Origin: an uncultured Candidatus Saccharibacteria bacterium
GTDB lineage: Bacteria > Patescibacteriota > Saccharimonadia > Saccharimonadales > Saccharimonadaceae
Assembly: GCA_947570505.1 (NCBI GenBank)
Contig: CANOTH010000001.1
Span: 1-64,000, forward strand
Reading direction: 5' to 3'
DNA: 64,000 nt
Below, piece after piece: positions 319-63,367 of the stretch. Under the pieces are notes generated by a model. The model saw only the letters and a program-made list of their open reading frames with translations, searched no databases and was not told the DNA's origin. Made by a program: the position numbers and the translations under genes. Positions within the stretch are counted from its first letter, which is position 1. The number at the start of each line of letters is the position of its first letter.

Positions 319-537
319 TTCGTCCGTAGCGGGAATACGTTGATGAACAATAATGCCATGCGCGATGTTGGCAGTACAAGTTTTAATTGGTCACGTTCTG
401 CTGGGAGTTGGTCTAATAACGACACGTGGTCAGCTAATGCTTACTATCTAGGACTTTATTCTGGGGAGAGCTACCCATCACGCGGACCATTTGCTCGTTG
501 GCTCGGTCTCCCCGTCCGCTGTTTGGTAATACTAGTT
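319..537 (+). pseudogene. Variable C-terminal cassette 1 (FISUMP-like, no own start)
   Basis: One of five related stretches in the window that encode about 70 residues of the pattern VRSG...W(S)...R(W/Y)xG(F/L)PVRCLVILV. The open frame starts after a TGA near 286 and reads through the conserved start motif ttcgtccgtagcggg (319-333) to the conserved end ccgtccgctgtttggtaata (514-533), continuing actagtt. No convincing start codon or SD site precedes it, although a TTG/ATG pair occurs inside at 340/343. The motif resembles the C-terminal FISUMP/C-type-lectin-like variable domains found on surface proteins of Bacteroidetes and CPR bacteria (family resemblance, from knowledge). Here it is detached from any N-terminal domain. 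It could be a gene remnant, a silent donor for gene conversion, or the 3' end of a lost gene. Confidence 0.6.
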
Positions 538-606
538 ACAAGGAATGATGGAGTTTTAGCTTTAATATTATATTGCAAATGGTGTTAGGGAGCAGTGGAC
601 GAGAAA

Positions 607-629
607 ACCCCTAGCACAAAACTAGGGGT
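607..629 (-). terminator. Rho-independent terminator of the MFS gene
   Basis: A perfect 8-bp stem, acccctag/ctaggggt, with a 7-nt loop. On the minus strand it is followed by TTTT. It lies just past the stop of the exporter gene. Confidence 0.8.
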
Positions 630-639
630 CATTGTTTAC

Positions 640-1818
640 TTATTCCCTCTTGAGAGCGAAAATTATCCTAAGGCTAATCGGAACAAAGAGAACCATTGTC
701 ATAAGTGGCGCATAGTGCAAATCGTAATCAGCTGCCCACCCTGTTAAGAATACCGCTGGGATATAAATAATTTGTCCAACCACTTTCGCCAACGAGACCA
801 CAGAAGTTTGCTCTTCAGGCTGAGTATGCTCTTGCACCAAAGTCATCAGAGTAGCGCCGGTCCAGCCCTGTACTACACCCATTAAGAGATAGGTCCAGAC
901 TGTCCAGAGATTAATCTTAATTGATAGAGTGGTCATACTGCAAATCATCAAACCGACCGGCAAAGCTAAAATTTGCCAATCTTTCAGCTTGACGACTAAC
1001 TTAGAAGCTAATTTCGTACCCACAATACATGCTAGCGAATTTAGCGCCCAAGCACCCGACACGATGCTGAGCGGCACTCCAGCCATGATGAGAATCGGGG
1101 TAAAAACCCAAATGATGCCATGAGTCATTTCTCTCCCCACTGCATAAGCTAAGATGCGTCTGCGTAATGTTGGTTCCTTAAAACTAGAGTGCAAAATCCT
1201 CATCATATCCCGTAAGGGGTTAGATTGGACGGGTTGGAGCCGGCAGCTGTCATCTTGAATAAACAGGCTGATGATCCCAGCCACAAGTGATGGTAGACCA
1301 GATAGCAAAATAGCTAAGCGGAAATTGATTGCACCAATTGGGCCACCTAGAAGCACGAGAATTAAAGTGGCTGCATACTGCCAAAAAGACAATCGTACAC
1401 TTTGCCGCCGAAAATACTCATCCGTTGGACAAATTTTTTGAGAAAAGTGTCTAAGCAAACTAACGTCTACTCCTTGGCTAAAGGCCATGAAGAAGCCCAG
1501 GCTGCATTCACAGATTACTACTCCCGTGAAGCTGTTTACTCCAGCATAAATCCAGAAGCTGATAGCTACCCCAAAATCCCCAATCACATTAGCCCATTTG
1601 CGACTAAAACGATCTGCAATCCAGCCAGCCGGTAAGTTCAGAATTGATACTACAATGGTAAAGATAGCTTGCGAAAGGGCAATTTGTCGCTGATTGAGAC
1701 CAATGGAATTGAAGAAGGGAGTCATAATGGACATGGACAGCAGGCCAGCGGTCAGGATTGACTCAAGCATGACCAGTTTAAGGTTACGTTTAGGAAGATT
1801 TTTCTGCATAATTTTCAT
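640..1818 (-). CDS. MFS transporter (probable drug exporter)
   Basis: A 392-residue major facilitator with about twelve hydrophobic segments, a normal length for the family. The loop after TM2 reads GWIADRFSRKWANVIGD, a good match to the conserved MFS loop (G-x-x-x-D-R). The substrate cannot be read from sequence. A start at 1809 (second ATG) fits better than 1818, because the SD-like AGAAAGG lies 9 nt before the 1809 ATG and almost touches the one at 1818. A leader peptide frame and an intrinsic-terminator-like hairpin lie upstream, an arrangement known for antibiotic-inducible efflux and methylase genes, so export of a ribosome-targeting compound is a reasonable inference. The gene is monocistronic, with a terminator at 607-629. 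Confidence 0.85.
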   Translation of the reverse strand: MKIMQKNLPKRNLKLVMLESILTAGLLSMSIMTPFFNSIGLNQRQIALSQAIFTIVVSILNLPAGWIADRFSRKWANVIGDFGVAISFWIYAGVNSFTGVVICECSLGFFMAFSQGVDVSLLRHFSQKICPTDEYFRRQSVRLSFWQYAATLILVLLGGPIGAINFRLAILLSGLPSLVAGIISLFIQDDSCRLQPVQSNPLRDMMRILHSSFKEPTLRRRILAYAVGREMTHGIIWVFTPILIMAGVPLSIVSGAWALNSLACIVGTKLASKLVVKLKDWQILALPVGLMICSMTTLSIKINLWTVWTYLLMGVVQGWTGATLMTLVQEHTQPEEQTSVVSLAKVVGQIIYIPAVFLTGWAADYDLHYAPLMTMVLFVPISLRIIFALKRE

Positions 1819-1850
1819 CCTTTCTTGAGAAAATAATTGTTAAGTTACTC

Positions 1851-2000
1851 TGCCGATGGCAGACCGCCGCATCGGAATTTGCGGCTAGAAAAGACCCGAA
1901 ACCTGATATTTCGGGACTTATCTAGTTGTAGTTAAGAAAGAATTAGACTAAAATAACTCCCGCACATTCTGCAGCGCATGGCAAACCGAGGCCATCGGTT
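1851..2000 (-). promoter_or_regulatory. Alternative-pairing leader of the MFS gene
   Basis: In the minus-strand transcript, ACCGATGGC inside the leader peptide frame (plus 1991-1998) is complementary over 8 bp to GCCATCGG just upstream of the exporter's ribosome site (plus 1853-1860). The terminator-like hairpin (1895-1915) lies between them. A stalled ribosome on the leader frame would cover the first strand and change folding downstream. Complementarity is seen in the sequence; the regulatory role is inferred. Confidence 0.45.
1895..1915 (-). terminator. Attenuator-like terminator between leader peptide and MFS gene
   Basis: A 7-bp stem, cccgaaa/tttcggg, with a 7-nt loop. On the minus strand it is followed directly by TCTTTTC. 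It lies about 30 nt after the leader peptide stop and about 80 nt before the exporter start. Confidence 0.65.
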
Positions 2001-2053
2001 GACGATGTCCACATAGCCATCAAAAACTGGTGTGCGTAGTTATTTCTACTCAT
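1943..2053 (-). CDS. Putative 36-residue leader peptide
   Basis: An ATG frame of 36 codons ending in TAA, beginning MSRNNYAHQFLMAMW and ending AECAGVILV. GGAAG lies just before the ATG as a weak SD site. It precedes a terminator-like hairpin and an exporter gene, so it probably senses translation stalling. No known leader peptide is recognised. The alternative is a chance frame in a structured RNA leader; the coincidence of frame, terminator and complementary segments favours a leader. Confidence 0.5.
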   Translation of the reverse strand: MSRNNYAHQFLMAMWTSSTDGLGLPCAAECAGVILV

Positions 2054-2152
2054 ACTTCCATTGTATCACACTTTAACAAAAAAGTCAAGACCATTTTCAG
2101 ATCCCGACTCTTTTGTACCTAAATATATAATCAGCAGCGCGCCTAAATAATT

Positions 2153-2362
2153 TTATGCGGCTTTTTTCTTCAATGTGAGGAAGCCATTACGTGGGTTCTC
2201 ATTAACAACGCGATCTTCTGGCAAATCACATGGAGTACCTTTACCACCTTCAGCAGTCTTCGTGAAGAAGTAAATAGTTTGTGGTTTACCGCCGCGCAAA
2301 GTAACTTCAGATTTATGCAAGTAGTAGGTAATGCCTTTGCTGTTGGTATGTTCGTAGGCCAT
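2153..2362 (-). CDS. Small conserved hypothetical protein, 69 aa
   Basis: A short soluble, basic protein (MAYEHTNSKGITYYLHKSEV...) ending LTLKKKAA, with no membrane segment or known motif. A very strong SD, AAGGAGGG, lies 6-7 nt before the ATG, so it is translated well. It resembles small proteins annotated as hypothetical in Saccharibacteria (memory of the family, not searched). It sits alone between the MFS leader and the next gene. The function is unknown. Confidence 0.75.
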   Translation of the reverse strand: MAYEHTNSKGITYYLHKSEVTLRGGKPQTIYFFTKTAEGGKGTPCDLPEDRVVNENPRNGFLTLKKKAA

Positions 2363-2428
2363 GAGGTCCCTCCTTAAATTATTATATCTCTATCTTATGC
2401 TGTCTTTACCGGGGTGTCAAGGGTTTTC

Positions 2429-3136
2429 TTAATGCTTATCCAAGAAAAACAGCGCAATCCTTAGCACGCACCAGATTAAAATGCGAGTAATGATGACCAA
2501 GATTAAGAAAACGCACAGCAGAATCACCCAACCAGCCCAGGTAGGGGCCCAGATTGGTGAAGCATAATTATAGCGAAAGAGCTCCGTAGACGGCACATCG
2601 GCTTTGAGCTCGGTTTCTGCTAAACGATCCACAGTAGGATAAGCTTCTAGCTCTCGATTGAGACATTCGTAGTATTGTGTACTCAGCAAGGACCAACCAT
2701 GCGCGAGTGCTTGGGGTCGACAGCGAGCCATTGCTACCGCATAGGCATCGCTCTCAGGAGTGCCACTGTTTTTGAGCTTTTCTTCGGCGGTCTCAATCGC
2801 AGCATTAGCAGCTCGTAGATATTGATGCTCTAGATAGAATGGGCCAGTGCCAAAAGTAATCTTTTGAGTACCATTTTGCTCCACAATGTTAACTACGATG
2901 TGTGAAAAGACAAATTGTTGTAATGCCGTCAGCGAAGTCTTGATGGCCTCATCATCTTCATTTGCATCTGCCTCCAAAACAGCGGTACGTAGCTCTACCA
3001 TACGCAAATGATCAAACCGCAACAAAGTCGCCGCTACAAACAACAATGGTACGAGTATCAAAAACAACTGCCAATTACGTACTCCGCTAAACCTATGCAG
3101 AGCTTGTTTCAGATGATTCGATTTTTTGCCACCCAT
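2429..3136 (-). CDS. Hypothetical two-TM membrane protein, 235 aa
   Basis: A hydrophobic segment near residues 20-40 (NWQLFLILVPLLFVAATLL) and another near 200-228 (WAGWVILLCVFLILVIITRIL) flank a soluble domain of about 150 residues. That domain is presumably outside the membrane and contains two cysteines (MARCRP, YYECLN). The layout is like small CPR envelope proteins of unknown role. The promoter is TATAAT (complement of 3146-3151), 9 nt before the ATG, with no SD. It is divergent from the Mur ligase gene; the two -10 boxes lie within 40 bp of each other. No function is recognised. Confidence 0.75.
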   Translation of the reverse strand: MGGKKSNHLKQALHRFSGVRNWQLFLILVPLLFVAATLLRFDHLRMVELRTAVLEADANEDDEAIKTSLTALQQFVFSHIVVNIVEQNGTQKITFGTGPFYLEHQYLRAANAAIETAEEKLKNSGTPESDAYAVAMARCRPQALAHGWSLLSTQYYECLNRELEAYPTVDRLAETELKADVPSTELFRYNYASPIWAPTWAGWVILLCVFLILVIITRILIWCVLRIALFFLDKH

Positions 3137-3177
3137 CTTGGTTTAATTATAGCATAAGTTCGTCCGCTGCAGTGTGC

Positions 3178-3183
3178 TATAAT
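3178..3183 (+). promoter_or_regulatory. -10 box of the Mur ligase (TATAAT-N6-ATG)
   Basis: Extended -10, TGCTATAAT, ends exactly 6 nt before the ATG at 3190. With start sites normally 6-7 nt after the -10 box, the mRNA would begin at or next to the ATG. This decides the start at 3190 over an in-frame codon at 3172, which lies inside the promoter. Confidence 0.75.
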
Positions 3184-3189
3184 GAATCT

Positions 3190-4506
3190 ATGAAGGTATA
3201 TATTTCTGGAATATCTGGTACTGGGATGGGGCCGTTGGCTTTGATGGCTCAGGATGCGGGAATGACGGTCTTTGGGTCGGATCTAGCTGGCGGAGCAGTC
3301 ACAAATGAGTTGGTAAATCATGGAATTAAATTATGCTTAGGAGATCAAGATGGTGAGTTTTTAAAGGCTCGAGCGAAAAATGAAGGAGTGGACTGGTTCG
3401 TTCATACTTCGGCTTTGCCAGCTAATCATCCAGAGTTATTATTAGCGAAAAAGCTGAAGCTCAAGATTTCCAAACGCGATGAATTCTTAAATTATTTACT
3501 CAAGAGACTCAAATTAAAGCTAGTAGCGGTGGCAGGAACACATGGTAAGACTACGACTACAGCGATGATTGTTTGGGCGATGCAGCAGCTCGGTGTGCCA
3601 ATTTCGTATCTAATTGGCACTACGTTGCCTTTCGCGTCGGCTGGGCATTATGACCCCGAGTCTAAATACTTTGTCTATGAAGCTGATGAATATGATCGTA
3701 ATTTTTTAGCCTTTCGGCCGTGGTTAGCCGTAATCCCGATTGTTTCTTATGACCATCCAGATATCTACCCGACTGTGCAGGACTATCAGCAAGCTTTTGA
3801 GCAGTTTGAGCAACAAAGCGAAACCGTGTTACATGGTGACGAAATTGATGCTGCTTTGACTCTGGCGGGCGAAGCTCGGCGCTATGACGCAACCTTGGCG
3901 ATTGATGCGGTGGAGCATATGCTACCAAAACCGCGAGGTATTAAGCGCATCACCAAGTCCCAGCATCGTCAGTTGGTTAAGATTATGAATGAGTTCCCGG
4001 GTGTGGGGCGGAGGTTTGAGCAGGTTTCTGAGGGCTATTATTCAGATTATGCTCACCACCCCGAAGAGGTGAAAGCAACGGTCGAAATCGCTTTAGAGGA
4101 AGCGGATCGTCGTGGGTTGAAAGGTGTGGTAGCAGTTTATGAGCCACATCAGAATGTTAGACAGGCAGAGTTGGCCGATGATTATGTGGAAGTATTCCAG
4201 GGACTAACAAAGCTGTATTGGGTACCGACATATTTGACTCGCGAAGATCCCAAGCTGGAAGTTATGCAACCGGAGGGCTTTATCGACAAACTCCAGAACA
4301 AGAAGATAGCCGAAGCATCTGTGCTGGATGATGGGCTAGCAGAAAAAATTAAGGACTGGCACAAAAAAGGTTATTTGGTTTTGCTAATGTCGGCTGGACC
4401 AGCGGATGCTTGGATTCGTAAGTTGGTCTTTGCCGGCAATCAAGAGTCAGCCGCTACTAGAATAGTACACGCGCCACGTAGTGCTGCAGAAGGTAGTGAA
4501 CGATAG
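3190..4506 (+). CDS. murC: Mur ligase, UDP-N-acetylmuramate--L-alanine ligase type
   Basis: A cytoplasmic ATP-dependent peptidoglycan precursor ligase of 438 residues. The N-terminal Rossmann-like domain begins ISGISGTGMGPLALMAQDAG and includes GSDLAGG. The ATP loop is VAGTHGKTTTTAMI near residue 115-130, and the central-domain motif YEADEYDRNF is followed by the SYDHPDIYPT segment. The C-terminal domain contains the DYAHHPEEVKAT motif typical of MurC/Mpl. MurC adds L-Ala to UDP-MurNAc; Mpl, a recycling ligase, shares these motifs and cannot be fully excluded. It is single and leaderless, and divergent from the gene at 2429-3136. Confidence 0.85.
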   Translation: MKVYISGISGTGMGPLALMAQDAGMTVFGSDLAGGAVTNELVNHGIKLCLGDQDGEFLKARAKNEGVDWFVHTSALPANHPELLLAKKLKLKISKRDEFLNYLLKRLKLKLVAVAGTHGKTTTTAMIVWAMQQLGVPISYLIGTTLPFASAGHYDPESKYFVYEADEYDRNFLAFRPWLAVIPIVSYDHPDIYPTVQDYQQAFEQFEQQSETVLHGDEIDAALTLAGEARRYDATLAIDAVEHMLPKPRGIKRITKSQHRQLVKIMNEFPGVGRRFEQVSEGYYSDYAHHPEEVKATVEIALEEADRRGLKGVVAVYEPHQNVRQAELADDYVEVFQGLTKLYWVPTYLTREDPKLEVMQPEGFIDKLQNKKIAEASVLDDGLAEKIKDWHKKGYLVLLMSAGPADAWIRKLVFAGNQESAATRIVHAPRSAAEGSER

Positions 4507-4527
4507 CCGCTGTAGCAGGTTGCGTTG

Positions 4528-4905
4528 CTAGTTATTCCCGCTGATACCTTCCACACCTGGTGTTCCTTGTAGCTCACTTGGTATCCCCAATGACTCATTA
4601 GAAAGCGGTGCAGGAGAAAACGGATCAGCAAAATCTTTGAGACGGTTATTTACTAGTCTCAACTCCTTAAGATATTCGTCTAATTCTGAAGCATTAAGTT
4701 CGCCGTTTTCAGAAAAAGTATAATTAATCGGGCCGACTGATTCTTCTGTGGCCTCTTCACTGTCTGGTAAATACCCGGGGCGCGAACGATCAAGATAAAT
4801 ATCGCCCGAGCTACGATAAATCATTAAGCTGGCTGTAGTCGTCACCCCAGCCAAAAAGATTGCTCCGCAACCTAAAATCATTAAATTTCTACCACCTTGA
4901 CTCAT
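4528..4905 (-). CDS. Hypothetical single-TM protein, 125 aa
   Basis: A short cytoplasmic N-terminus is followed by a membrane segment near residues 9-28 (MILGCGAIFLAGVTTTASLM), then an acidic, Pro/Ser-rich tail ending GVEGISGNN. It looks like a secreted or anchored envelope protein with a disordered tail. Its ATG overlaps the stop of the upstream gene by 4 nt, so it is translationally coupled as the last gene of the operon 6465-4528. No family is recognised. Confidence 0.7.
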   Translation of the reverse strand: MSQGGRNLMILGCGAIFLAGVTTTASLMIYRSSGDIYLDRSRPGYLPDSEEATEESVGPINYTFSENGELNASELDEYLKELRLVNNRLKDFADPFSPAPLSNESLGIPSELQGTPGVEGISGNN

Positions 4906-5456
4906 AGTTTTTGCCTCAAGTCTAATACACTAGCATATTGTTCTTCCGCTAGCTGTGCTAATTCTTGGGTAATTTTGCGCAAACTGGAACGTTTTTTGCG
5001 TACAACTTCAAGCTGTTCGTAGAATTCATCTGGCAATTTTTGACAATCACGGCCCATTAATACTTCCATTTCGCGCATATATTCAGTATACGTGCTACGA
5101 AACTCTGACTGTTTCAGGGAAAAATCCGATTGAATATGCGGCAAAGTAGCGCGATTATTCTTTACCAAACGTAAATTGAGGGGCACAATAAATTTATTGA
5201 CCAAGGTCTCGTAAGTAGTTCCCAGGTAGTTGCGAGTCTTTGTGTCTACTCTTTGGAGCTGACTTAGGCTCTGTTTGATTGTAGAGCAATTTTGCGAAAT
5301 TGCTCCCCGTTGCTCTTCAGATAACCCGTCGGCCGGGGTGGAAAGCAAAACCGAAATTGCAATACTACAGACAATTACCAGAATCAGCCACTTAATGACC
5401 TTTAGCGGAAAGAGCAATAATCTAACGATAAATCCCATTATGTTTCTTTCCATCAT
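4902..5456 (-). CDS. Hypothetical membrane-anchored coiled-coil protein, 184 aa
   Basis: An N-terminal membrane segment (about residues 8-38, VRLLLFPLKVIKWLILVIVC) is followed by a helical, coiled-coil-prone region with two cysteines (SQNCSTIK and RDCQKL). They are well placed to form a disulphide outside the cell, which fits the Dsb-like protein encoded just upstream. The start could be the ATG at 5456 or the second ATG 18 nt later (MGFIV). The 5' end overlaps the end of the upstream gene and the 3' end overlaps the next by ATGA. It is part of a three-gene operon. The function is unknown. Confidence 0.7.
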   Translation of the reverse strand: MMERNIMGFIVRLLLFPLKVIKWLILVIVCSIAISVLLSTPADGLSEEQRGAISQNCSTIKQSLSQLQRVDTKTRNYLGTTYETLVNKFIVPLNLRLVKNNRATLPHIQSDFSLKQSEFRSTYTEYMREMEVLMGRDCQKLPDEFYEQLEVVRKKRSSLRKITQELAQLAEEQYASVLDLRQKL

Positions 5457-6465
5457 AGATTAAAGTCGGTATACCCTTGGCATGAATTTTATCTTCTACC
5501 ATATTCTTAACTGAATTTAGGATATTAGCCACTTGCTCGCCCTCGGCTAGCTGAGAGATCTCTTCAATGGTTGTTGGCTTCGCACCAAAATCTTGCAACC
5601 AGCTTCTTAACAGCTTCTCGGCCTCTTCACTCGACGCGTTCTGCATAACAGATTGATAATTAACTCCCGATTGATCTGATTCGGTAAAGAGTCGCTCGAT
5701 AATTTTCGCAGCATATTCTTGTTTGGTCAGAGCTGCGGCATAAATATAACGTGTAATTAGCTCGGAATTATTGAACTTATAGCCACCGTCTGGTAGGCTA
5801 ATTGGATAAACTATTAAGATGGTATTAAAACGGTCAAAGAAGCCGTCAGCCTTCTGATTACGATAAGAACGCAAACATACGGTACAACCTGGATCAAATA
5901 TATCCAGCGCTAATGGTTTGCCTTCCTGAAAATCTTGAGCATAAATTACAGGATCAACTCGGTAATCCTCGGCCTGCCAGCTATGAAAACGATCAGGGAT
6001 ATTAACGAAGATCTCACCCCACTCTGAGAACCAACGACCGGTCCATTCTAGAGGGTTAGTCGGTTCGGCAGCCTCGATTCCACAGACTTCTGCTCCTAGA
6101 GCACAGCTCTCGGGTTGAGATACGTTACAAGTACCAAAAACCCAGATTGCTAGCAAAGCCTTAATTGCCTCGACCAATGACCAAATAGTAACAATAACAA
6201 TCAGAACTGCACTAACCTCAATCGCTATGCCTAGAGGCTTCACCCATTTTGGATGTTTTAAAACTATCCGGCTAAGTAAGGTGTTTTTTACATCATCCTT
6301 AAAGTTAGTCTCGCATTTCTGCAGACGCACTTTTTTACCCACACAGCCCCAAGCTTTTTTGAAAACGGTCCAATATTTTTTACCAATATCGCGCCGAAAA
6401 ATACTAAGGAAGGCTACAAAAACCCCAACTAAGGCTAGGATAATAAATGCTGCAATACAAACCAT
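5422..6465 (-). CDS. Membrane protein with DsbA-like thioredoxin domain, 347 aa
   Basis: The N-terminus MVCIAAFIILALVGVFVAFL is one membrane segment; a second lies near residues 80-110 (VSAVLIVIVTIWSLVEAI). The remaining ~200 residues are predicted extracytoplasmic and carry GCTVCLRSYRN, a CxxC redox motif, plus KGIPTLIYDG, which fits the cis-Pro loop of thioredoxin folds. The likely role is disulphide formation or reduction in secreted proteins. The ATG at 6465 is chosen because TATAAT (complement of 6472-6477) lies exactly 6 nt upstream; an in-frame start further out would lie inside the promoter. It is the first gene of an operon with two small envelope genes. A cassette sits just upstream. 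Confidence 0.7.
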   Translation of the reverse strand: MVCIAAFIILALVGVFVAFLSIFRRDIGKKYWTVFKKAWGCVGKKVRLQKCETNFKDDVKNTLLSRIVLKHPKWVKPLGIAIEVSAVLIVIVTIWSLVEAIKALLAIWVFGTCNVSQPESCALGAEVCGIEAAEPTNPLEWTGRWFSEWGEIFVNIPDRFHSWQAEDYRVDPVIYAQDFQEGKPLALDIFDPGCTVCLRSYRNQKADGFFDRFNTILIVYPISLPDGGYKFNNSELITRYIYAAALTKQEYAAKIIERLFTESDQSGVNYQSVMQNASSEEAEKLLRSWLQDFGAKPTTIEEISQLAEGEQVANILNSVKNMVEDKIHAKGIPTLIYDGKKHNGIYR

Positions 6466-6520
6466 GGGACTATTATAGCATATCTTAACTAAGCACAGTG
6501 GTTCTGATCTTGCCATTACC

Positions 6521-6718
6521 CTCGTCCGTAGCGGAAATATTCATCCCAGATCTGGAGCACTAGCTAATTTCGGTGCTACCGGTTGGAAATGGTCATCTGT
6601 TGTCTCTGCTAGTGACTTGTATTCTTACTTCCTGGGTATTGTAGATGGCGAGGTCAAGCCATCACGCGCCGATGCTCGTTGGCTCGGTTTCCCCGTCCGC
6701 TGTTTGGTAATACTAGTT
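6521..6718 (+). pseudogene. Variable C-terminal cassette 2
   Basis: The frame begins at conserved ctcgtccgtagcgga (6521-6535) and ends at ccgtccgctgtttggtaata (6692-6711), continuing actagtt, with the last bases identical to cassettes 1 and 4. The middle differs strongly and is shorter: WKWSSVVSASDLYSYF then SRADARWLGFPVRC. It lies in the gap between the aspS 3' end and the promoter of the next gene, on the opposite strand to both, with no start signal. Confidence 0.6.
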
Positions 6719-6727
6719 CGTATAATG

Positions 6728-10567: not shown

Positions 10568-10568
10568 A

Positions 10569-40323: not shown

Positions 40324-40400
40324 TGGTACACCGGATAGGATTCGAACCTACGACCCTCTGTTCCGAAGACAGATGCTCTGATCCACTGAGCTACCGGTGC
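40324..40400 (-). tRNA. tRNA-Arg (anticodon TCG)
   Basis: Minus strand. Acceptor strand gcaccgg (from 40400) pairs with ccggtgt at the 3' end, followed by A and an encoded CCA (40326-40324). D-arm GCTCAGTGGATCAGAGC; anticodon arm TCTGT-CTTCGGA-ACAGA gives TCG; T-arm TTCGAATCC. Its first 46 nt are duplicated at 56112-56157, marking the integration site. The sequence upstream of its 5' end now belongs to the element, with a TATAAA 10 nt before G1. Confidence 0.95.
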
Positions 40401-40403
40401 ATG
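40355..40403. repeat. attL, 49-bp direct repeat in tRNA-Arg
   Basis: 49 bases identical to 56112-56160, covering nucleotides 1-46 of the tRNA plus 3 bases upstream. It includes the anticodon arm, a common crossover place for tyrosine recombinases. Confidence 0.92.
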
Positions 40404-40578: not shown

Positions 40579-41730
40579 TTAATAGCTAATACCTAGCTTT
40601 GAGCCTCTGAGTTCAGCGATCATTCTGCTGGCATCAATTTTGTTTTGCTGGCTAACGTGTTGATATACCTTCATCGTGACATTTGGATCGGAGTGTCCCA
40701 TCAAAACTTGATTGGTTTTTAGATCGACTCCACTATGGCACAAGTCAGTACAGAAGCTATGCCTTAAGGAATGTGGTGGCAAATATCTTATATTAGCTTT
40801 CTTAACTACTGCTTTATATGTGCGTTCAAAGTTTCTTGGAGAAATTGGGGCATTGCTAGTAGTGTGGAATACTAACTCACAATTACTGGTGTCTTCGTTA
40901 ATGAATTTCTGTAGCAAACAGCTCAAACTTTTTGTAATGGGGATATCACGAATACTAGACGAGGTTTTAGGAGTAGTAATCATTGGTTTATTATTAATAA
41001 TCACTACTTGTTGTCTAATATGGATAAAATTATTCTTAAAATCGCAATCAGATTTGCGTAAACCTAGTGCTTCCCCTCTCCGTAGACCGCAAGTTACAAT
41101 TAGAAGATATAAAGGCCGTAATTTTTCGTCTTTAGTTGCCTGAATAGAAGTTTTTAGTTCTTGATCACTCCAAATCTCTTTCTCTTTCCTGGTGTATTTA
41201 GGTAGAATCACCCCAAGTGCGGGGTTATCAGAAATTTTTTCTTCTTCAATAGCTAGCTTCATAACTGCAGAGATTGCGTCCCTACTAATTTGACATTGCC
41301 TAGTATTACCGAATCTATTATTAACTCGCTGAATGCTAAGTCTAATATCTCGTTTAGTGATCTGATTAATGCGTTGATTCCCTAATTCTGGTAATAATAC
41401 ACGTCGTAGAGCATACATATAAGTTTCGATGGTATGCAATTTGTAGTTAGTGGGATCATCTGGATACATTTCTTGGCATTTGATCATTAAGCTCTCCCAG
41501 TAATTAGCATAGTCCTTTAGCGTTTCACACTTTCGAAAACTAAATGCTTTATCTTTAGCTTCAACAATACACTTCATGAGCTTTTCATCAGCTTCTTTCT
41601 TAGTCTTAGCGGTAACCGTCTTAATGTGTTTTACCCCAAGCTCATCATAAACTGAATATCTACCCTCCCAACGTTTAGTTGAAGCCCTATATACTAGAGA
41701 GCCAGTTCCGCTAGAACGTCGCTTACTCAT
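40579..41730 (-). CDS. int: Tyrosine recombinase / integrase
   Basis: 383 residues. The N-terminal arm-binding type domain (GSLVYRASTKRWEGRYSVYDELG) is followed by a SAM-like core domain and the catalytic domain, with Arg in TCGLRRGEALGLRKSD, HSLRHSF (HxxR), GHSDPNVTMKVYQHV (His and Tyr nucleophile). All catalytic residues are present, so it should be active. It ends 176 nt from the left repeat. Its ATG overlaps the stop of the excisionase (TAATG). Confidence 0.95.
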   Translation of the reverse strand: MSKRRSSGTGSLVYRASTKRWEGRYSVYDELGVKHIKTVTAKTKKEADEKLMKCIVEAKDKAFSFRKCETLKDYANYWESLMIKCQEMYPDDPTNYKLHTIETYMYALRRVLLPELGNQRINQITKRDIRLSIQRVNNRFGNTRQCQISRDAISAVMKLAIEEEKISDNPALGVILPKYTRKEKEIWSDQELKTSIQATKDEKLRPLYLLIVTCGLRRGEALGLRKSDCDFKNNFIHIRQQVVIINNKPMITTPKTSSSIRDIPITKSLSCLLQKFINEDTSNCELVFHTTSNAPISPRNFERTYKAVVKKANIRYLPPHSLRHSFCTDLCHSGVDLKTNQVLMGHSDPNVTMKVYQHVSQQNKIDASRMIAELRGSKLGISY

Positions 41731-55840: not shown

Positions 55841-55890
55841 TACTTAAAATCCCTGGCGGGAACGAATCCAAACCAGGGGGCTATGTCTTT

Positions 55891-55919: not shown

Positions 55920-55943
55920 TTGGAGAACCTTACACCAATATCG

Positions 55944-55970: not shown

Positions 55971-56111
55971 GGCTCTTTACATACACACTTTTATACACAC
56001 TCTGGCAGGCACAATTAGGATACATAGGGAAACATTCAGACACAATCATAAAACTGCATTAAGAGTAAAGTGTGTATTTACAGATACAAAAATGAGTAAT
56101 TTTTAGTTCCA

Positions 56112-56160
56112 CCTCTGTTCCGAAGACAGATGCTCTGATCCACTGAGCTACCGGTGCATG
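56112..56160. repeat. attR, 49-bp repeat (5' half of tRNA-Arg)
   Basis: Identical to 40355-40403. The minus strand carries TATAAT (complement of 56166-56171) 8 nt before the tRNA-half start, which looks like the original tRNA promoter left behind on this side. Confidence 0.92.
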
Positions 56161-56202
56161 CAGTAATTATAACACAAAATATCAAACTGGGCCGGCTAAA
56201 CC

Positions 56203-56823: not shown

Positions 56824-56865
56824 AGCTATATTATACAGGTTAAATAGTCAAGATACAAGTGACAG

Positions 56866-56953
56866 AAAAATGACCATTAGTCATAAAGTATCTTGACATC
56901 AGATTTTTATAGAGGTAAAATGTCTTTAGAAAAAATGACCGCTGGTCATTTTT
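56866..56953. promoter_or_regulatory. TetR operators around the MMPL promoter
   Basis: Box 2 is a perfect palindrome, AAAAATGACC-GCT-GGTCATTTTT (56931-56953), and sits at the start of the transcript. Box 1 (about 56866-56887) is an imperfect copy, AAAAATGACC-ATT-AGTCATAAA. Between them is the promoter TTGACA (56893-56898), 17-nt spacer, TAAAAT (56916-56921). Confidence 0.85.
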
Positions 56954-57027
56954 ATCAAAGTGTGGTAAGTCTGTTCCGCTACGCAAGGCGGGTAACTTAT
57001 CTTAAAATTAATTAAAATAGGAGAGCT

Positions 57028-59115
57028 ATGAAAAAGTTTAGCGAGTTTATCTGCAAACAACGCTGGCTAATTGTCATTATCTCAGGGATTTTGATGATAC
57101 CAGCTTTGTTTGGCTATCTCGCCACGCGAATCAATTATGATTTGCTGGTCTATCTACCTTCCGACATTGAGACTTTGGAAGGTCAGGAAATTTTGACCGA
57201 AGAGTTCGGTATGGGTGCCTTCTCGGTCGCAGTCGTCGAAAACATGCCCCAGAAAGAGTTATTGGAGCTGGAGAATAAGATTAGTGGAGTTGAGAGCATC
57301 AACCAAGTTTTGAGCTTGGCGGATTTGGCTGGTACTGCGGTGCCGTTAGACTTCTTACCAACAGCCGTGCGGGAGAAGGCTATGCGCGAGGGTAGCCAGC
57401 TAATGCTGATTACTTTTAGTGAAGGTACCAGCGACGAGCAGACCCTGAATGCTGTAGAAGAAATTCGGAGAATTGCGGGCCAGAGTTGCTTGATTGGTGG
57501 CATGAGCGCCATGGTCCTGGATACTAAAATTCTGTTTAATAGCGAGACTGTACTATATGTTTCAATCGCGGTTGGCTTGTCACTTATCGTACTACTTCTA
57601 GCCTTGGATTCGTTCGTCGTGCCTTTCTTGATGATTGGCAGTATTGGTGTGGCTCTATTATTTAATATGGGGACCAATATTTTCTTAGGAGAAATCTCTT
57701 ACATTACTAAAGCGATTAGTGCTGTTTTGCAGCTGGGGGTGACGATGGATTTCTCGATTTTCTTGTACCATAAATACGAGGCGGCCAAGCGGCAAGAAAA
57801 AGACAAACTGAAAGCAATGGCCGGAGCGATTACGGAAACTGCGACTTCGGTGCTAGGCAGTGCTTTGACAACTTTTGCGGGATTCTTGGCGCTTTGCACC
57901 ATGAGTCTCACTCTAGGTACGGACATCGGCATCGTAATGGCTAAAGGTGTGGTGCTGGGGGTGGTTTGTGCGATCACAACTTTCCCGGCCTTGCTGCTGG
58001 TCTGTGATCGTTGGATCGAGAAAACCAAGCATAAAGAATTGTTGCCGAAATTTACGGCCGTGCAGAATTTCATCGTGAAGCTAAGGGTGCCGATTTTAGT
58101 TATCTTTGCGGTTTTGTTAGTGCCAGCATATATTATCCAAGGTAAGACTGAAGTTTATTATAAGCTCGATTCTTCGATTCCAGAAAGTTACGATTATACA
58201 AAAGCTATGACTATCCTCCGCGAAGAATATGGTATGGAGTCACAGATGATGGTGTTAGTACGTCGAGAAACAAGTACGGCTGATGTAAATAATATGGCAC
58301 GGGAAATTTCTAATGTTGAGGGGGTGGATGCAGCTTTGAGCTTGGCGATGTTGGCAAATTATGGTCTATCCGAAGATATTTTGAGCGAACAGGTGCGTAC
58401 TATTGCCGAGACGGAGAACTATACTATGCTGCTAGTTTTATCCGACTATAGCATTGCATCAAATGAACTAAACGATCAAATTGCCAAAATTAATGAAATC
58501 GTTGATCGTTATGACGAGGGTGCGATTGTGGCAGGCGAGGGGCCGCTGATGAAAGATTTGGTGGAAATCTCGGATCGAGATTTTACGAATGTGAATATGG
58601 TTTCGATTGGTGTGATTTTTGTGATTATGGCAATTGTGCTAAAGTCGATTTCTCTGCCGGTTCTACTGATGGCGGCGATTGAATTTGCAATTTTCTTAAA
58701 CTTAGGCGCAGCTTTTGTGACCAGTACGGAGATTCCGTTCATTGCTTCGATCGTGATCGGTACGATTCAGCTAGGTGCAACGATTGACTACGCGATTTTG
58801 CTCACTACAAAATATCTAGAAGAGCGACAAAAGGGATCGGACAAAATCAAATCAGCCCATCAAGCACTTAGTAGCTCTATGCAATCAATCTTTGTCAGTG
58901 CAATGTGCTTCTTTGGCGCAACGATTGGTGTGGGTGTGATTTCGCAAATTGATATGATCGGATCGCTCTGTACCTTAATCGCGCGTGGGGCCATTATCAG
59001 CATGGTGGTCGTGGTGACTGTAGTACCGGCACTTCTAGTAGTTTGTGATCCAATTATTCGCAAAACGACACTAGGATTCAACAAAACTAAAGTAATCGAA
59101 GCCAAAAATAATTAG
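57028..59115 (+). CDS. MMPL/RND-family exporter
   Basis: 695 residues with 12 predicted helices in two halves, each having a large outer loop after the first helix. The membrane motifs LGVTMDFSIFLYHKYEAAKR and LGATIDYAILLTTKYLEERQKG are the paired Asp-containing TM4/TM10 motifs of MMPL proteins. It exports lipids or hydrophobic compounds by proton motive force. SD TAGGAGAG lies before the ATG. First gene of an operon with the secreted protein below, under TetR control. Confidence 0.92.
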   Translation: MKKFSEFICKQRWLIVIISGILMIPALFGYLATRINYDLLVYLPSDIETLEGQEILTEEFGMGAFSVAVVENMPQKELLELENKISGVESINQVLSLADLAGTAVPLDFLPTAVREKAMREGSQLMLITFSEGTSDEQTLNAVEEIRRIAGQSCLIGGMSAMVLDTKILFNSETVLYVSIAVGLSLIVLLLALDSFVVPFLMIGSIGVALLFNMGTNIFLGEISYITKAISAVLQLGVTMDFSIFLYHKYEAAKRQEKDKLKAMAGAITETATSVLGSALTTFAGFLALCTMSLTLGTDIGIVMAKGVVLGVVCAITTFPALLLVCDRWIEKTKHKELLPKFTAVQNFIVKLRVPILVIFAVLLVPAYIIQGKTEVYYKLDSSIPESYDYTKAMTILREEYGMESQMMVLVRRETSTADVNNMAREISNVEGVDAALSLAMLANYGLSEDILSEQVRTIAETENYTMLLVLSDYSIASNELNDQIAKINEIVDRYDEGAIVAGEGPLMKDLVEISDRDFTNVNMVSIGVIFVIMAIVLKSISLPVLLMAAIEFAIFLNLGAAFVTSTEIPFIASIVIGTIQLGATIDYAILLTTKYLEERQKGSDKIKSAHQALSSSMQSIFVSAMCFFGATIGVGVISQIDMIGSLCTLIARGAIISMVVVVTVVPALLVVCDPIIRKTTLGFNKTKVIEAKNN

Positions 59116-59125
59116 AAAGGATAAT

Positions 59126-60619
59126 ATGAAAAAAGTTTATCAAAATATGTTTGCACTCTTTACCGCTGGGATAATTGCGGCAATGCCGTGTTATTCAGTA
59201 GCAGCATTGAGCCAGGACGAAACTGTCTATGCTAAGCTACAGACATCGGGTGAGGCGCGAAGTATTGCCGTAACTAAACATTTAATTAATGATGCTAAGG
59301 AAGCGCAACTGCAAGATATATCGGTGTTGGAAAATATTGAGAATCTGAATGGTTCCGAATCCTTCGCCATGGTGGATGGTCAGGTAGTCTGGACAGCTAA
59401 TGGTAAAGATATTTATTATCGGGGTACAACTACCAAAGAGCTACCAGTGCAGCTAGAGATAAGCTATTTCCTGAATGGTGAAGCCAAAACTCCAGATGAA
59501 ATGTTAGGCCAGGAGGGTAAAGTAGAAATACGTTTGCATTATATTAATAAGGCTCGGGTTGGCGACATGTATGTTCCATTTGTAGCGGCGATTGCGACTA
59601 CTTTGGATGAAACACAGGTCTCAAATGTGGTCGTGAGTAATGGTAAGTCTACTAGCAATGGCCGAAAAATTGCCGTGGCAGCCGTAGCAACACCAGGTTT
59701 ATACGAAAGTTTGGGCCTGGAAGAACTAAAAGGTTCTGATACCGTGACAGTGAACTATGAGACGAAGAAGTTTGAGCTCAATGATATCTATACTATTATC
59801 ACACCAAAATTAATCGACAATGATGACTTAAAAACTTTTGCTGAGCTAGATCAACTTTATGACAAAATGAACACTCTATCTTACAGCAGTCAACAGTTGG
59901 TGGCTGGGGCAAACGAACTGGCGACGGGAAGTAAAGAACTGCAAACCGCGGTCAATGGTATTGCACAGAAGCTAGAAGTGCCAGCTCTAATGATCGGCGA
60001 GGATAAATTGACGGAAATCAAAGCTACAGCCAAGTTAGCTGCTGAACAACAGGTGGAAGCTCAACGACCAACTATCACCGCAACGATTAAGCGACAGGTG
60101 GAAGGTAATGCTATCCTAAGCAATGCACTGAAGCTGCCGGCCACGGAAATGTGCCAAGCTGATTTAGGATTGAATTGTAGTGCTGCGGCAATCCAACAGT
60201 ACGTAGCAAAATTAATGGCAGGTGTCGAACAAGAATTAGTTGAGAGCTCGATGAATCTGGCAAAAATGACCGCTGGTCAGACAGCAGTACAAACAGCCGA
60301 AACTGTAGCTCTTGGTATTATTGATACAATGCAAAAGAGTTTGGCGCCACTCGTCAAGAATTCTTTGGCTTCCCTGACGGCCGGAGTAAATAAATTAGCC
60401 GCTGGAGCAAACGAGCTTAGTACCGGCATGGCTAAATTTGATCGCGAAGGCATTCAGCCCCTTAATAATCTCGTGAACGGGAAAATCAGGACCACAGCTC
60501 ACCAGCTAGAGAATTTGACTAAACTAGCAGATGAATATGATAATTATGCTGGCATCGCTGAAGGGGCGAAGGGGACAACTAAATTCGTACTCATGATCGA
60601 AGGCAAAAAGGCCAACTAA
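59126..60619 (+). CDS. Secreted protein with YhgE-like repeats, MMPL partner, 497 aa
   Basis: Signal peptide MKKVYQNMFALFTAGIIAAM ending near VAALS. A beta-rich N-terminal domain of about 230 residues is followed by helices with heptad-like LVAGANELATGSKELQTAVNG and LAAGANELSTGMAKFD, the motif seen in YhgE/Pip proteins that pair with MMPL transporters. It has a basic C-terminus with no clear anchor. It starts 10 nt after the exporter, with SD GAAAGGATAAT. Its stop overlaps that of the convergent ABC-F gene. Confidence 0.7.
   Translation: MKKVYQNMFALFTAGIIAAMPCYSVAALSQDETVYAKLQTSGEARSIAVTKHLINDAKEAQLQDISVLENIENLNGSESFAMVDGQVVWTANGKDIYYRGTTTKELPVQLEISYFLNGEAKTPDEMLGQEGKVEIRLHYINKARVGDMYVPFVAAIATTLDETQVSNVVVSNGKSTSNGRKIAVAAVATPGLYESLGLEELKGSDTVTVNYETKKFELNDIYTIITPKLIDNDDLKTFAELDQLYDKMNTLSYSSQQLVAGANELATGSKELQTAVNGIAQKLEVPALMIGEDKLTEIKATAKLAAEQQVEAQRPTITATIKRQVEGNAILSNALKLPATEMCQADLGLNCSAAAIQQYVAKLMAGVEQELVESSMNLAKMTAGQTAVQTAETVALGIIDTMQKSLAPLVKNSLASLTAGVNKLAAGANELSTGMAKFDREGIQPLNNLVNGKIRTTAHQLENLTKLADEYDNYAGIAEGAKGTTKFVLMIEGKKAN
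60262..60279. promoter_or_regulatory. Intragenic copy of the TetR operator
   Basis: AAAAATGACCGCTGGTCA inside the coding sequence (encoding AKMTAGQ) is identical over 18 bases to the operator at 56931-56948. Confidence 0.5.
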
Positions 60620-62274
60620 ACCAAGTCGGAATTTAGATAGTAATAATACTCAAGCAACTCGCGGGAATAGTTTTTAATCACCGCGAGTTGTGAGTTTTGT
60701 TTGCTTGAATCCAAAGTCTGTCGTGATGGTACAATTAACATACGAGTAATTCCCACTTGTTCGACAAAGGCGGGGTTATGGCTTACCATAATAATTGTGC
60801 CAGTATAATCTTTGAGATTCTCACCGATGATTTTTTGAGTCTCTGGATCAAAATGGTTAGTGGGTTCGTCTAAAATCACTAAATTTGCCCTCTGCAGAAG
60901 AATTTTACAAAGAGCCACCCGGGCCTTTTCTCCCGGAGACAAAACCTCAACTTTCTTATACACGTCATCATCATAAAATAAGAAATTTGACAGCATACTA
61001 CGTAGCTCAGTATCACTAAAATCATAGCTATTAATATTCTCCAGAATCGTGCGGCGCTCATCCAGAATTTCTAATTCTTGAGCATAATAGGCAATAGTAG
61101 TGTTTTGGCTTAAAATCACCGAGCCGCTTTGAGGCTGCAATTCGCCGACAATTAATTTTAGCAAGGTAGATTTGCCTGCACCGTTTTCGCCTACGATGAG
61201 AAATTTTTCGCCACGAGTTAAGCTGAAAGAAAGCCGCTCGTGTAAAAGAGGCTCGTTGGGATAACCAAAAGATAAATTCTGAACTTCGAGCGGAGTTTTG
61301 CCGCTAGCTTTGGCGGGAGTGATATTCATGGCGACCCGAGCATATTCTTGTTCACGAGTGCCTAGCTCTTCAAGCTTTTTAGCTAAGACCTTTTCGCGCT
61401 GATGACCCATGCCAATCAGAGCCGTATTAGATCGTTTTGCGGCCCGAGCTCGAGCTACAAATTCACTGAGGCGCTTGATCTCGCGCTCCTGTTCCGTAAT
61501 GCGGGCATCCTCGGCAGCTTTTTCTTCGGCATATTGACGACGAAAATCATTGTAATTGCCACGATAAACTTTCATCTTGTGCGTAGTTTTATTGATGAAA
61601 AGAGTTTTATTGGTTACTTGGTTCAAAAAATCCACATCGTGCGAAATGACCAGAACTGTGCCTTGATAATTACGCAGGAAATTCGCCACAAAATTTCTAG
61701 TCTCCACGTCAAGATGGTTAGTAGGTTCATCCAAAAGCAGCAGGCTAGCATTCTCAAACAGCACTCGGGCAAAAGCCACTTTGGATTTTTGGCCACCAGA
61801 CAAATCAGACATTTTGTGATCCATCAAATCCGCAAGTTGCATTTTTTCCAAAATTCTTAGCAGCTCATAATCGAAATTTGCCATGTCGTAAGAGTCGATC
61901 GAATCTTGAAGGTCATTAATTCGTCCTAAAATAGCTTGGCTGTCTGGATATTTAGCTAATTTTTCGTATTCTAGGTTCAGTTGTTCTTGCAAATCATCAA
62001 CCGGACGGCCCGCGGCGACATATTCCCAAACCGTCATGGCATCGTGCGCGGGCGGAGTAGTAATCTCTTGCGGTAAATAGCCTAAACGATGGTTGGGCAA
62101 ATCAATTTTGCCGCTATCAAGCTGCTGTTCGCCTAAAATAATGCGGAAAAGGGTGGTTTTACCCGCACCATTCACTCCCACTATGCCTACTTTATCATGA
62201 TTTTCTAAAATAAAATCGCAGTCATCGTAGATGATTTTCGTACCGTAAGCTAGGTGAAGATGTGATGCTTTCAT
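60616..62274 (-). CDS. ABC-F family ATPase (ribosome-associated)
   Basis: 552 residues, two ABC domains in one chain and no membrane part. Domain 1: Walker A GVNGAGKTTL, signature LSGGQKSKVAFAR, Walker B LLLLDEPTNHLDVETR. Then the charged linker with coiled coil (EKAAEDARITEQEREIKRL). Domain 2: GENGAGKSTL, LSPGEKARVALCK and LVILDEPTNHFDPETQ. ABC-F proteins act on the ribosome in translation quality control or antibiotic protection. TATAAT (complement of 62281-62286) lies exactly 6 nt before the ATG: leaderless. Confidence 0.93.
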   Translation of the reverse strand: MKASHLHLAYGTKIIYDDCDFILENHDKVGIVGVNGAGKTTLFRIILGEQQLDSGKIDLPNHRLGYLPQEITTPPAHDAMTVWEYVAAGRPVDDLQEQLNLEYEKLAKYPDSQAILGRINDLQDSIDSYDMANFDYELLRILEKMQLADLMDHKMSDLSGGQKSKVAFARVLFENASLLLLDEPTNHLDVETRNFVANFLRNYQGTVLVISHDVDFLNQVTNKTLFINKTTHKMKVYRGNYNDFRRQYAEEKAAEDARITEQEREIKRLSEFVARARAAKRSNTALIGMGHQREKVLAKKLEELGTREQEYARVAMNITPAKASGKTPLEVQNLSFGYPNEPLLHERLSFSLTRGEKFLIVGENGAGKSTLLKLIVGELQPQSGSVILSQNTTIAYYAQELEILDERRTILENINSYDFSDTELRSMLSNFLFYDDDVYKKVEVLSPGEKARVALCKILLQRANLVILDEPTNHFDPETQKIIGENLKDYTGTIIMVSHNPAFVEQVGITRMLIVPSRQTLDSSKQNSQLAVIKNYSRELLEYYYYLNSDLV

Positions 62275-62329
62275 TCAGATATTATAACATATTTGTTGAA
62301 AATTAATTCTGAGGTTATATGCTAGAATT

Positions 62330-62515
62330 AAACAGTAAGCTCAATGCTTATGGGACCCAAAGGGGCTATTTTGAGGTTTTGGCTCCAGCTACCCGCGGTT
62401 CTCCATGATAAAAGATCGTGAGGCTGCCCTCTGAACTCTGTAAGAGGAGGAATGAGGCTAGCAGGAAGTGGGGTCAAGATCTCCACTATAAAAAGACAGC
62501 TTCTATACTATCGTC
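62330..62515 (+). ncRNA. Possible structured RNA upstream of cassette 3
   Basis: An extended -10, TATGCTAGAAT (ending at 62328), is followed by about 185 GC-richer bases with local hairpins such as cctct/agagg (around 62435-62455) and agtgg/ccact (around 62469-62489). No frame covers it well. It does not match the core motifs of RNase P RNA, tmRNA or SRP RNA as far as can be told by eye. It could be a 6S-like RNA, or the decayed 5' part of a gene ending in cassette 3. Confidence 0.3.
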
Positions 62516-62524
62516 TGTGCCTGA

Positions 62525-62789
62525 CTTCGTCCGTAGCGGGAATGTCAACTTGAACAACGGTGCTTTGCGGGGCTATGGTGAGTCTGGCTGGGGTTGGTCG
62601 CGCTCGGCGGTGGCTTATGGTTCTGCTACCTCGGCTAATGCCTACCAACTATACTTTAATCCTTCCGTCGTCCATCCATCCAACGGCCCGAACAATCGTT
62701 ACAACGGTTTCCCCGTCCGCCTGTTTTGTCGCGGTTCGGTGCCGATCTTTTTATATCTAGTTCTTCGCTCAAGGGCGCAGAACAGTTGA
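62525..62789 (+). pseudogene. Variable C-terminal cassette 3
   Basis: Begins at ttcgtccgtagcggg (62525-62539); reads VRSGNVNLNNGALRGYGESG, then WGWSRSAVAYGS, YQLYFNPSVV and NNRYNGFPVRL. It keeps ccccgtccgc near 62711 but then diverges (cctgttttgtcgc) and runs to a TGA at 62787. The frame is open upstream to a GTG at 62418 but that stretch looks non-coding. The N-rich pattern is the closest of the five to a FISUMP-type consensus. Confidence 0.6.
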
Positions 62790-62814
62790 ACTTGTAATAT
62801 CATTACAAGTTCAA
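62786..62814. terminator. Perfect hairpin between cassettes 3 and 4
   Basis: 13-bp perfect arms, ttgaacttgtaat/attacaagttcaa, with a 3-nt loop. No T-run follows on the plus strand, so it may be a structural or protein-binding site rather than a terminator. Confidence 0.5.
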
Positions 62815-62858
62815 CCTATGGTTTACAGAGGTAAATTCATATTAATCCCGGCTTAATT

Positions 62859-63071
62859 ACCGTCCGTAGCGGGCTCGTCAACTTAAACCTCGGCTCACTG
62901 GGATACTCGGGCAACTTTGGCTACGACTGGTCGCGTACTGCTATCTCTTACTCGTCACCGACCTCTGCTCGCTCTTACTGGTTTGAGTTTAATGCCTCAG
63001 TGTCTCGCCCGTCCCTCGGCCCGAACGGTCGTTACATCGGTCTCCCCGTCCGCTGTTTGGTAATACTAGTT
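62859..63071 (+). pseudogene. Variable C-terminal cassette 4
   Basis: Begins accgtccgtagcggg; reads VRSGLVNLNLGSLGYSGNFG, then YDWSRTAISYSS, SVSRPSLGPNGRY and IGLPVRCLVILV. It ends in the same bases as cassettes 1 and 2 (ccgtccgctgtttggtaata, then actagtt). No start codon or ribosome site precedes it. A short hairpin, aacc/ggtt, with a T-rich tail follows near 63099. Confidence 0.6.
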
Positions 63072-63172
63072 GATGTCTTACAACTCTAACTATACAACCT
63101 CAAGGGGTTATTTTGTTTAAGTAATTCTCATATGTTTGTTGAGCTAACACAAGCTTAGAATTGGCCTTTTCG

Positions 63173-63367
63173 TAATTAGTATACCAGACAGCGGACGGGG
63201 AAACCTTGCCAACGAGAATCGTCAGTCGAAGTACCGACATACTGTAGCATAACCCCAAGACGATGAGCTACCCCTATTTGCATAGCGACACTCGACCAAT
63301 TATTCCCCACTGTACTCAGACGTCTTACTGAGCTATGGCTTATAGCCACAAGCCCGCTACGGACGAA
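63173..63367 (-). pseudogene. Variable C-terminal cassette 5 (opposite strand)
   Basis: Minus strand, beginning ttcgtccgtagcggg (complement of 63353-63367). Reads FVRSGLVAISHSSVRRLSTV, then GNNWSSVAMQIG, DSRWQGFPVRCLVY and stop. The 3' end is slightly decayed (ccgtccgctgtctggtatac). It is convergent with cassette 4. Confidence 0.55.

Follow-up and report, generated by a model that had tools for sequence, protein, structure and literature searches.

Why should pieces of gene ends be kept in the gaps of a small bacterial genome? The question is raised by the window analysed here, that is, the first 64 kb (64,000 nucleotides) of contig CANOTH010000001.1 (C1 below) in the draft genome of an uncultured Candidatus Saccharibacteria bacterium, where five short stretches share conserved ends and differ widely in their centres. 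The original prediction took them for like members of a dispersed cassette family lying between genes, without an N-terminal domain, and forming a reservoir of silent C-terminal variants of a surface protein; relics of the variable regions of a diversity-generating retroelement (DGR) and decayed gene ends were its alternatives. We consider it probable, though far from certain, that the stretches belong to a DGR which has been taken apart and multiplied, and that its lone variable regions (VRs) form a stock of variants which swaps bodies with the gene of a surface protein. The DGR core of this reading is well supported, and from it and the features of the cassettes we infer that the lone VRs are a silent archive for the surface gene.

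The cassette family and its templates

The genome (G000) is a 1.23 Mb draft of 72 contigs, with an estimated completeness of 95.9% and contamination of 6.5%. All five stretches were found in the window at the coordinates given earlier, and the 12-base start motif CGTCCGTAGCGG is exact in each of them. With at most 2 mismatches allowed, this motif occurs at 7 places in the window against 1.69 expected, a number reached in 0 of 100 shuffles, and three of the copies share the 27-base end CCCGTCCGCTGTTTGGTAATACTAGTT without a difference (0 expected). Genome-wide, 119 exact places of the start motif were counted (61 on the plus and 58 on the minus strand) and 0 for the reversed pattern, which bears out the predicted family of scattered copies with conserved ends; the 198 other genomes searched from the same taxonomic family have 0 or 1 exact place each. 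The features of the window are as follows.

319-537, plus strand: lone VR cassette (5' motif, variable body and 3' end with TACTAGTT), about 110 nt past a tRNA gene (121-206)
6521-6718, plus strand: lone VR cassette in an intergenic gap
62318-62328, plus strand: extended -10-like box (TATGCTAGAAT) preceding the leader of the template repeat (TR) RNA, a putative promoter judging by its sequence
62331-62468, plus strand: conserved structured leader of the TR RNA, including AAAGATCG, able to pair with CGATCTTT behind the TR
62526-62720, plus strand: Asn-rich TR, the third cassette of the original prediction
62721-62750, plus strand: TR-specific 3' tail ending in GTGCCGATCTTT
62786-62814, no strand: terminator-like palindrome TTGAACTTGTAAT...ATTACAAGTTCAA
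62859-63071, plus strand: lone VR cassette, with its nearest TR on contig C9
63173-63367, minus strand: lone VR cassette, convergent with the VR at 62859-63071

The counts of VRs given below refer to the part of the genome that was read, 430,639 bases around the places of the start motif, which holds 118 copies (110 with an exact start motif and 8 with 1-2 mismatches plus the 3' motif). One hundred and five of these end like CCCGTCCGCTGTTTGGTA and are VRs, and five carry instead a tail with CGCGGTTCGGTGCCGATC and are TRs. The other 8 have the start motif and neither end, and were excluded from the VR counts; by eye, about 4 of them are truncated where a contig ends (C9 twice, C23 and C26). The TR-type 3' end, with at most 3 mismatches, occurs at just five places genome-wide (reversed control, 1 place). 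The 3' ends of TRs and VRs differ, as do those of DGRs, in which the initiation of mutagenic homing sequence (IMH) of the VR has the counterpart IMH* in the TR. Four of the five stretches in the window are VRs, whereas the one at 62525-62789 is a template with another 3' end, a promoter-like box and a leader.

The differences between TRs and their near VRs are directed at adenine. In a near set of 14 VRs of TR length with at most 30 differences from the TR nearest by total differences, 168 of 527 TR adenines were changed (32%), as compared to 66 of 802 C, 31 of 677 G and 33 of 724 T (5-8%), and A was lost 168 times and gained 48 times. One VR has only 7 differences from a TR, and the VR at 62859-63071 has 32 differences from the TR on C9, 16 of them at TR adenines. 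Since the differences fall mainly at TR adenines, adenine-mutagenic reverse transcription carries, or once carried, the sequence of the TR RNA into these VRs or into those from which they descend. Two related genomes with a single TR each gave the same picture. In G236, 25 VRs with at most 40 differences had 467 of 1125 A changed (41.5%; other bases 4.8-8.0%), and in G285 the value for 13 VRs was 247 of 481 (51.4%; other bases 4.1-6.7%), or 52% of A against 15-20.5% of the other bases for all 20 same-length VRs of that genome. The VR at 319-537 differs from its nearest TR at 59 non-A or gap positions and so appears to be of an old or foreign lineage.

All five TRs have many Asn codons, and each stands behind a -10-like box and a leader, the leader starting about 195-280 nt ahead of the TR; among the TR leaders listed, others are also preceded by boxes resembling TATGCTAGAAT. 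The leader element AAAGATCG and the tail element GTGCCGATCTT were found, with one mismatch allowed, at 19 of 19 TRs in four genomes and are complementary, so that the TR can be enclosed by a helix; they are nearly invariant and yield no proof by covariation. The hairpins within the leader do covary, with compensatory changes in 14 of 20 consensus pairs (22 sequences from 4 genomes). The tail end GTGCCGATCTTT also follows the TRs in five further genomes, and no VR was found to carry it. Palindromes like that at 62786-62814 stand before or between some other cassettes as well. On contig C11 (L072:900-960) we noticed an orphan TR-type tail without a TR, about 300 nt behind a leader and a VR-type cassette, and on contig C28 (L049:3980-4600) a VR with a TR-type leader ahead of it is followed by a gene which by eye resembles that of an IS3-type transposase.

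The lone VRs lie mostly between genes, as had been predicted. Only 7 of the 105 are overlapped over at least 60 nt by an open reading frame (ORF) of at least 120 aa in another frame, as compared to 814 of 1000 random 195-nt windows overlapped by such ORFs when any frame is counted. The 5' flanks of the VRs in this genome have nothing in common beyond a weak AC, and at the 3' side conservation ends after TACTAGTT; in G236 the 3' end is conserved slightly further, and in G285 the upstream 24 nt are partly conserved too, fading outward. Inverted repeats with stems of at least 12 were found in 20% of 101 downstream and 11% of 102 upstream flanks against 2% of 300 random 150-nt stretches, so that most VRs have no such repeat in the 150 nt tested. 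Long inverted repeats can therefore be at most a part of the story, and an upstream palindrome (13 places) was rejected as a component of every unit, standing beside only some cassettes. Over at least 4 bases just upstream, 20% of the lone VRs match the full-length gene described below, against 1.4% of controls, a hint that gene 3' ends were their source.

The downstream flanks of the VRs also share several repeat families, which by eye have long hairpins and resemble miniature inverted-repeat transposable elements (e.g., L073, L042, L043, L044, L062 and L066). Twelve clusters were formed by these flanks, of which one consists of tandem cassettes and one of TR leaders, and 36 of the 105 flanks stayed unclustered. 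A search of the VR end against two public collections gave 4 and 1 exact matches, to unrelated named records and one viral contig, which we take as chance; records of this genome itself possibly lie outside those collections.

The target gene and the reverse transcriptase

Among the 118 copies, a long in-frame stretch upstream (549 codons) was found in one gene on contig C27; the next longest has 141 codons and the median is 16. This agrees with the predicted lack of an N-terminal domain in the lone copies. The C27 gene is the one full-length target gene found in the genome, beside 105 VRs read; it provides the complete gene with the same 3' end that the original prediction had asked for, and encodes a protein of 609 aa whose last 71 residues are the VR. 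The protein has, by eye, a hydrophobic N-terminal stretch and a partial FISUMP match (TIGR02145, residues 254-284, E 3.2e-8), which is below the cut-off, and no relatives of solved structure were found up to E 1. With its first 537 residues as a query, only the C27 gene itself and a 54-residue piece on C24 were found in the own genome, the piece being a short 3' fragment of that gene that ends in another VR. The same query matched 5 places in G233, 5 in G236 and 7 in G285, the match being to this part ahead of the VR. In G236 a full-length target gene was noticed (contig C20, L236); its VR runs off the contig end and is close to the one TR of this genome.

Two reverse transcriptases (RTs) are encoded in the genome, on contigs C3 and C22. 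The C3 RT has 430 aa and matched PF00078; its best match among solved structures is 8ub7 (E 7.8e-21), which we take to be the RT of a Bordetella phage DGR. It contains IGNLTSQ and YVDD, presumably meaningful for an RT of the DGR kind, and PADLOC assigned it to a general RT model. By its sequence, the C3 RT is DGR-like. Upstream of it lies an ORF of 331 aa, which is found with 70-74% identity near the RTs of G233, G236 and G285. A search for Avd in this partner ORF gave no match at relaxed thresholds. The RT and the partner ORF are both open. On C22 (L031 / L048) a VR ORF, a weakly Avd-like ORF, a TR and an RT were found together; this looks like an ordinary, separate DGR, and the contig may be a contaminant.

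The original prediction had also suggested a search for a recombinase. The RTs answer the other half of that suggestion; no recombinase could be linked to the cassette ends, where tyrosine recombinases were counted genome-wide and the ends themselves were not followed up. Eight tyrosine recombinases were counted in the own genome (C1, C9, C14, C16, C36, C39, C44 and C62), as compared to 0-3 in 11 other genomes of the genus. The one on C16 stands about 200 nt ahead of a lone VR. In the window, a tyrosine recombinase gene stands beside a tRNA (40327-40403 and 40579-41730), and a 49-nt stretch overlapping that tRNA is exactly repeated 15.8 kb away (56112-56160), which is possibly an integrated element.

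The same system was found in relatives. A profile of the VR protein, run over 99 genomes of the genus, gave at least 61 matches each in G000, G210, G233, G236 and G285 and 36-44 in three more, most of the matches listed lying in short open frames. A leader model (R1) built from own-genome copies only had matches in G000 (9), G233 (12), G236 (1) and G285 (1) and in no other of these 99 genomes. The three outside genomes with R1 matches, out of 98, are all among the four others with at least 61 VR matches (4 in 152,096, about 2.6e-5). A second leader model, with copies from the relatives added, matched 10 of 174 genomes, now including G210, with at least 19, 12, 10, 9, 3, 2, 1, 1, 1 and 1 matches per genome. 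Among 34 further leader stretches, 27 have the leader and the tail at the expected distance (17 in G360 and 10 in G363), and 22 of these 27 pairs enclose a VRSG-type frame; the other 7, including those of G210, G211, G234 and G362, have no leader-tail pair. In G236 and G285 the homologue of the C3 RT (72% and 76% identity) is directly followed by the leader and the TR, the only ones in the genome, and this ties the C3-type RT to the TR RNA.

Shared bodies and open frames

Eighteen pairs of VRs have bodies of at least 90% identity (length difference at most 3), and the 60 nt upstream are alike in 1 of the 18 and the downstream flank in 1 of 17 testable. Such near-identical bodies run from the 5' motif to the IMH-like end, and the places that hold them are unrelated in their flanks. 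The lone VR at C19:7840 is 100% identical over its body to the VR of the C27 gene, again with unrelated flanks; the pair itself does not give the direction of transfer. A mosaic pair, C11:25206 and C11:28945, is identical over about the last 78 nt and different before. In 12 listed pairs with nearly the same body, the sequences diverge within the first 14 nt past the IMH-like end, which suggests that bodies are replaced while the ends stay in place. A mobile cassette inserted whole accounts less well for this divergence than does replacement at an existing place, and it was rejected.

The body is without a stop or frame shift in 103 of the 105 VRs. None of the 21 VRs of TR length with at least 40 differences from every TR has a stop, as compared to a mean of 18.0 of 21 (minimum 13) in 200 runs of a neutral simulation with the same amount of change, a rough yardstick that ignores the adenine bias, which alone would make fewer stops. 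The median pN/pS was 0.65 over 209 VR pairs. The VR bodies far from the TRs have probably passed through translation at some time, and it is mainly for this reason that we think lone and expressed places exchange bodies.

Explanations considered

A mechanism can be proposed for which the chances appear about even, namely a two-stage engine in which an adenine-mutating RT with many free-standing template RNA genes refills a genome-wide library of about 100 silent cassettes, and one surface gene draws from it by conversion; the cell would in this way store, recombine and test variants made by the retroelement. The RT and the partner ORF would copy the TR RNA into mutated cDNA, and the cDNA would replace the body of any VR having both end motifs; bodies would also be swapped between VRs by homologous conversion. 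The expressed gene would display one body at a time, and selection would test the variants reaching it and so keep the bodies open and in frame. VR units at new places would most likely have come from the 3' end of a target gene.

It is conceivable, though rather unlikely, that a working DGR merely has the lone VRs as accidental extra targets and that nothing flows back to the expressed gene; VR units would then have spread by chance or selfishly, and the DGR would keep overwriting them. This would give the adenine bias seen in lone VRs, and re-copying from the TR alone would restore an open frame. Inverted repeats are commoner near VRs than in random windows, and in a reconstituted system a stem-loop behind the IMH aids retrohoming (PMC12875486). 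What it explains poorly is that VRs far from all TRs stay open (0 of 21 with a stop against 18.0 expected), that the median pN/pS is 0.65 over the 209 pairs, and that one lone body is identical to that of the full-length gene. One full-length gene beside many silent copies, with bodies shared between sharp ends, would also be expected of plain gene conversion without a retroelement, as in Borrelia vls and Neisseria pilS, which are silent-cassette systems of antigenic variation; the five odd copies would then be mere variants. We set this aside, as very improbable, on the strong one-directional adenine bias relative to those five copies, and it is further opposed by the structured leader and tail, which are conserved over genomes and stand beside the RT in two. 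Hardly more probable is the view that the cassettes are decayed ends of genes, or remnants of a DGR no longer at work, persisting by chance. The lack of an N-terminal part in the lone copies, the distance of many VRs from any TR and a few broken copies would suit it, whereas the VR frames are open, as are those of the RT and the partner ORF, one VR is only 7 differences away from a TR, and the same system is found in relatives; decay was set aside on the open frames. Of the alternatives in the original prediction, DGR variable regions named the right family, and relics fit badly with 103 of 105 open frames and a system kept in relatives; decayed gene ends agree poorly with those frames and with the 0 of 21 far VRs with a stop. 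The predicted silent C-terminal reservoir holds as to the family, the surface-type gene and the bodies common to a lone copy and the gene, whereas one of its five members proved to be a template.

Several points weigh against a DGR that has been taken apart and feeds a surface gene. The adenine bias falls with distance: for 40 VRs with at most 90 differences it is 40% of A against 18.5-22% of the other bases, and for all 38 same-length VRs of G236 45% against 12-17%. Nearest VR-VR pairs, taken as a control, have a smaller A excess (20% against 8-10.5%), and about half of the listed VRs have 57-80 non-A or gap differences from all five TRs. The weakening of the bias implies that many VRs stem from other or lost templates, or are old, and on these sequences DGR action appears supported for VRs near a TR and is not extended to the far ones. 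Open frames near a TR could arise from re-copying alone. No TR out of the five was found on C3, the contig of the RT, in the genome-wide TR search, and another RT, accompanied by a TR and a VR, is found on C22, so that the pairing of the C3 RT with the TRs rests on the relatives. The best NCBIfam match of the C3 RT is a group II intron RT, far below the cut-off, and for the partner ORF no recognisable family, and no match to Avd even at relaxed thresholds, was found. Three leader copies precede VR-type cassettes (C11:406, C28:3784 and C14:25620), an arrangement suggesting that TR and VR places exchange as well, and of the nine matches of the own-copy leader model the ninth (C4:14888) is weak.

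Other points of this kind concern the assembly, a single draft with the 72 contigs and estimated 6.5% contamination given above. Contig C27 ends about 30 nt past the VR of the target gene, and several contigs break inside VRs, so that target genes could be cut and their number is a lower bound. About 4 of the 8 copies with neither end are, by eye, broken or end otherwise (C3:23119, C4:42558, C11:21055 and C14:1218), and decayed copies are under-counted because copies were located via the end motifs. All conclusions on exchange come from this one assembly, without a second strain or reads, and no switch was seen in it.

Relation to known systems

As in DGRs of the BPP-1 type and those with several VRs, a DGR-like RT is found here and a TR is copied with adenine errors into the C-terminal VR of a surface-type gene; the differing ends of TR and VR and a TR within a structured RNA are shared as well. 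Unlike in the usual DGRs, the TR genes are free-standing, multiplied (5 here, and 10 to at least 19 leader matches in three relatives) and away from the RT, about 100 VRs lie nearly all outside any target gene, and the partner ORF is not recognisable as Avd. A TR next to the RT, the usual though not defining arrangement, was not found for the C3 RT in the own genome and is present in G236 and G285. The likeness to vls and pilS consists in one expression place, many promoterless partial copies and bodies exchanged between conserved ends, where for the present system expression and silence are our inference; unlike in those systems, the cassettes are scattered genome-wide and mutated by a retroelement.

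Two partial DGR fragments of Nanoarchaeota bear VRs without an RT and have signs of adenine mutagenesis (PMC4372165); they are alike in that their VRs are remote from any RT, and unlike in that both still have a target gene. In the sources cited the number of VRs per DGR is mostly small, and DiGReF lists up to four within about 11 kb around the RT (PMC3521204). According to MetaCSST, 271 of 948 DGRs have several VRs, and 92.6% of its VRs overlap ORFs; the copies of a VR belonging to a single TR may number from a dozen to hundreds, and in one case 6 TRs form 91 TR-VR pairs, A-to-N changes being few (PMC6642488). High numbers of VRs as such are thus already in print, and the present anatomy was not found in the accessible part of that source. 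Nine DGRs, some with several targets, were described in one bacterium (PMC10907252), and for a rebuilt Bordetella DGR it is described that cDNA enters a homologous target, that this has an IMH end and that an inverted repeat following the IMH is of help (PMC12875486). In another source a DGR appears as a table entry (PMC9948471). A literature search on DGRs together with Saccharibacteria, Patescibacteria, orphan VRs, several templates or VRs, and gene conversion found no such system, subscription journals lying mostly outside the search. A large survey states that remote VRs are invisible to it (PMC8144416), and surveys restricted to the surroundings of the RT would miss a system like the present one.

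The usual description of a DGR combines a single template, one enzyme and one target gene or a few. In the present genome the templates as well as the targets have multiplied and lie apart, most of the targets are outside genes, and bodies are common to several places. If the lone VRs are indeed an archive for the surface gene, the system would unite targeted hypermutation with silent-cassette conversion, which have so far been considered separately, and it would bear on the way in which the small-genome bacteria of this group change their surface.

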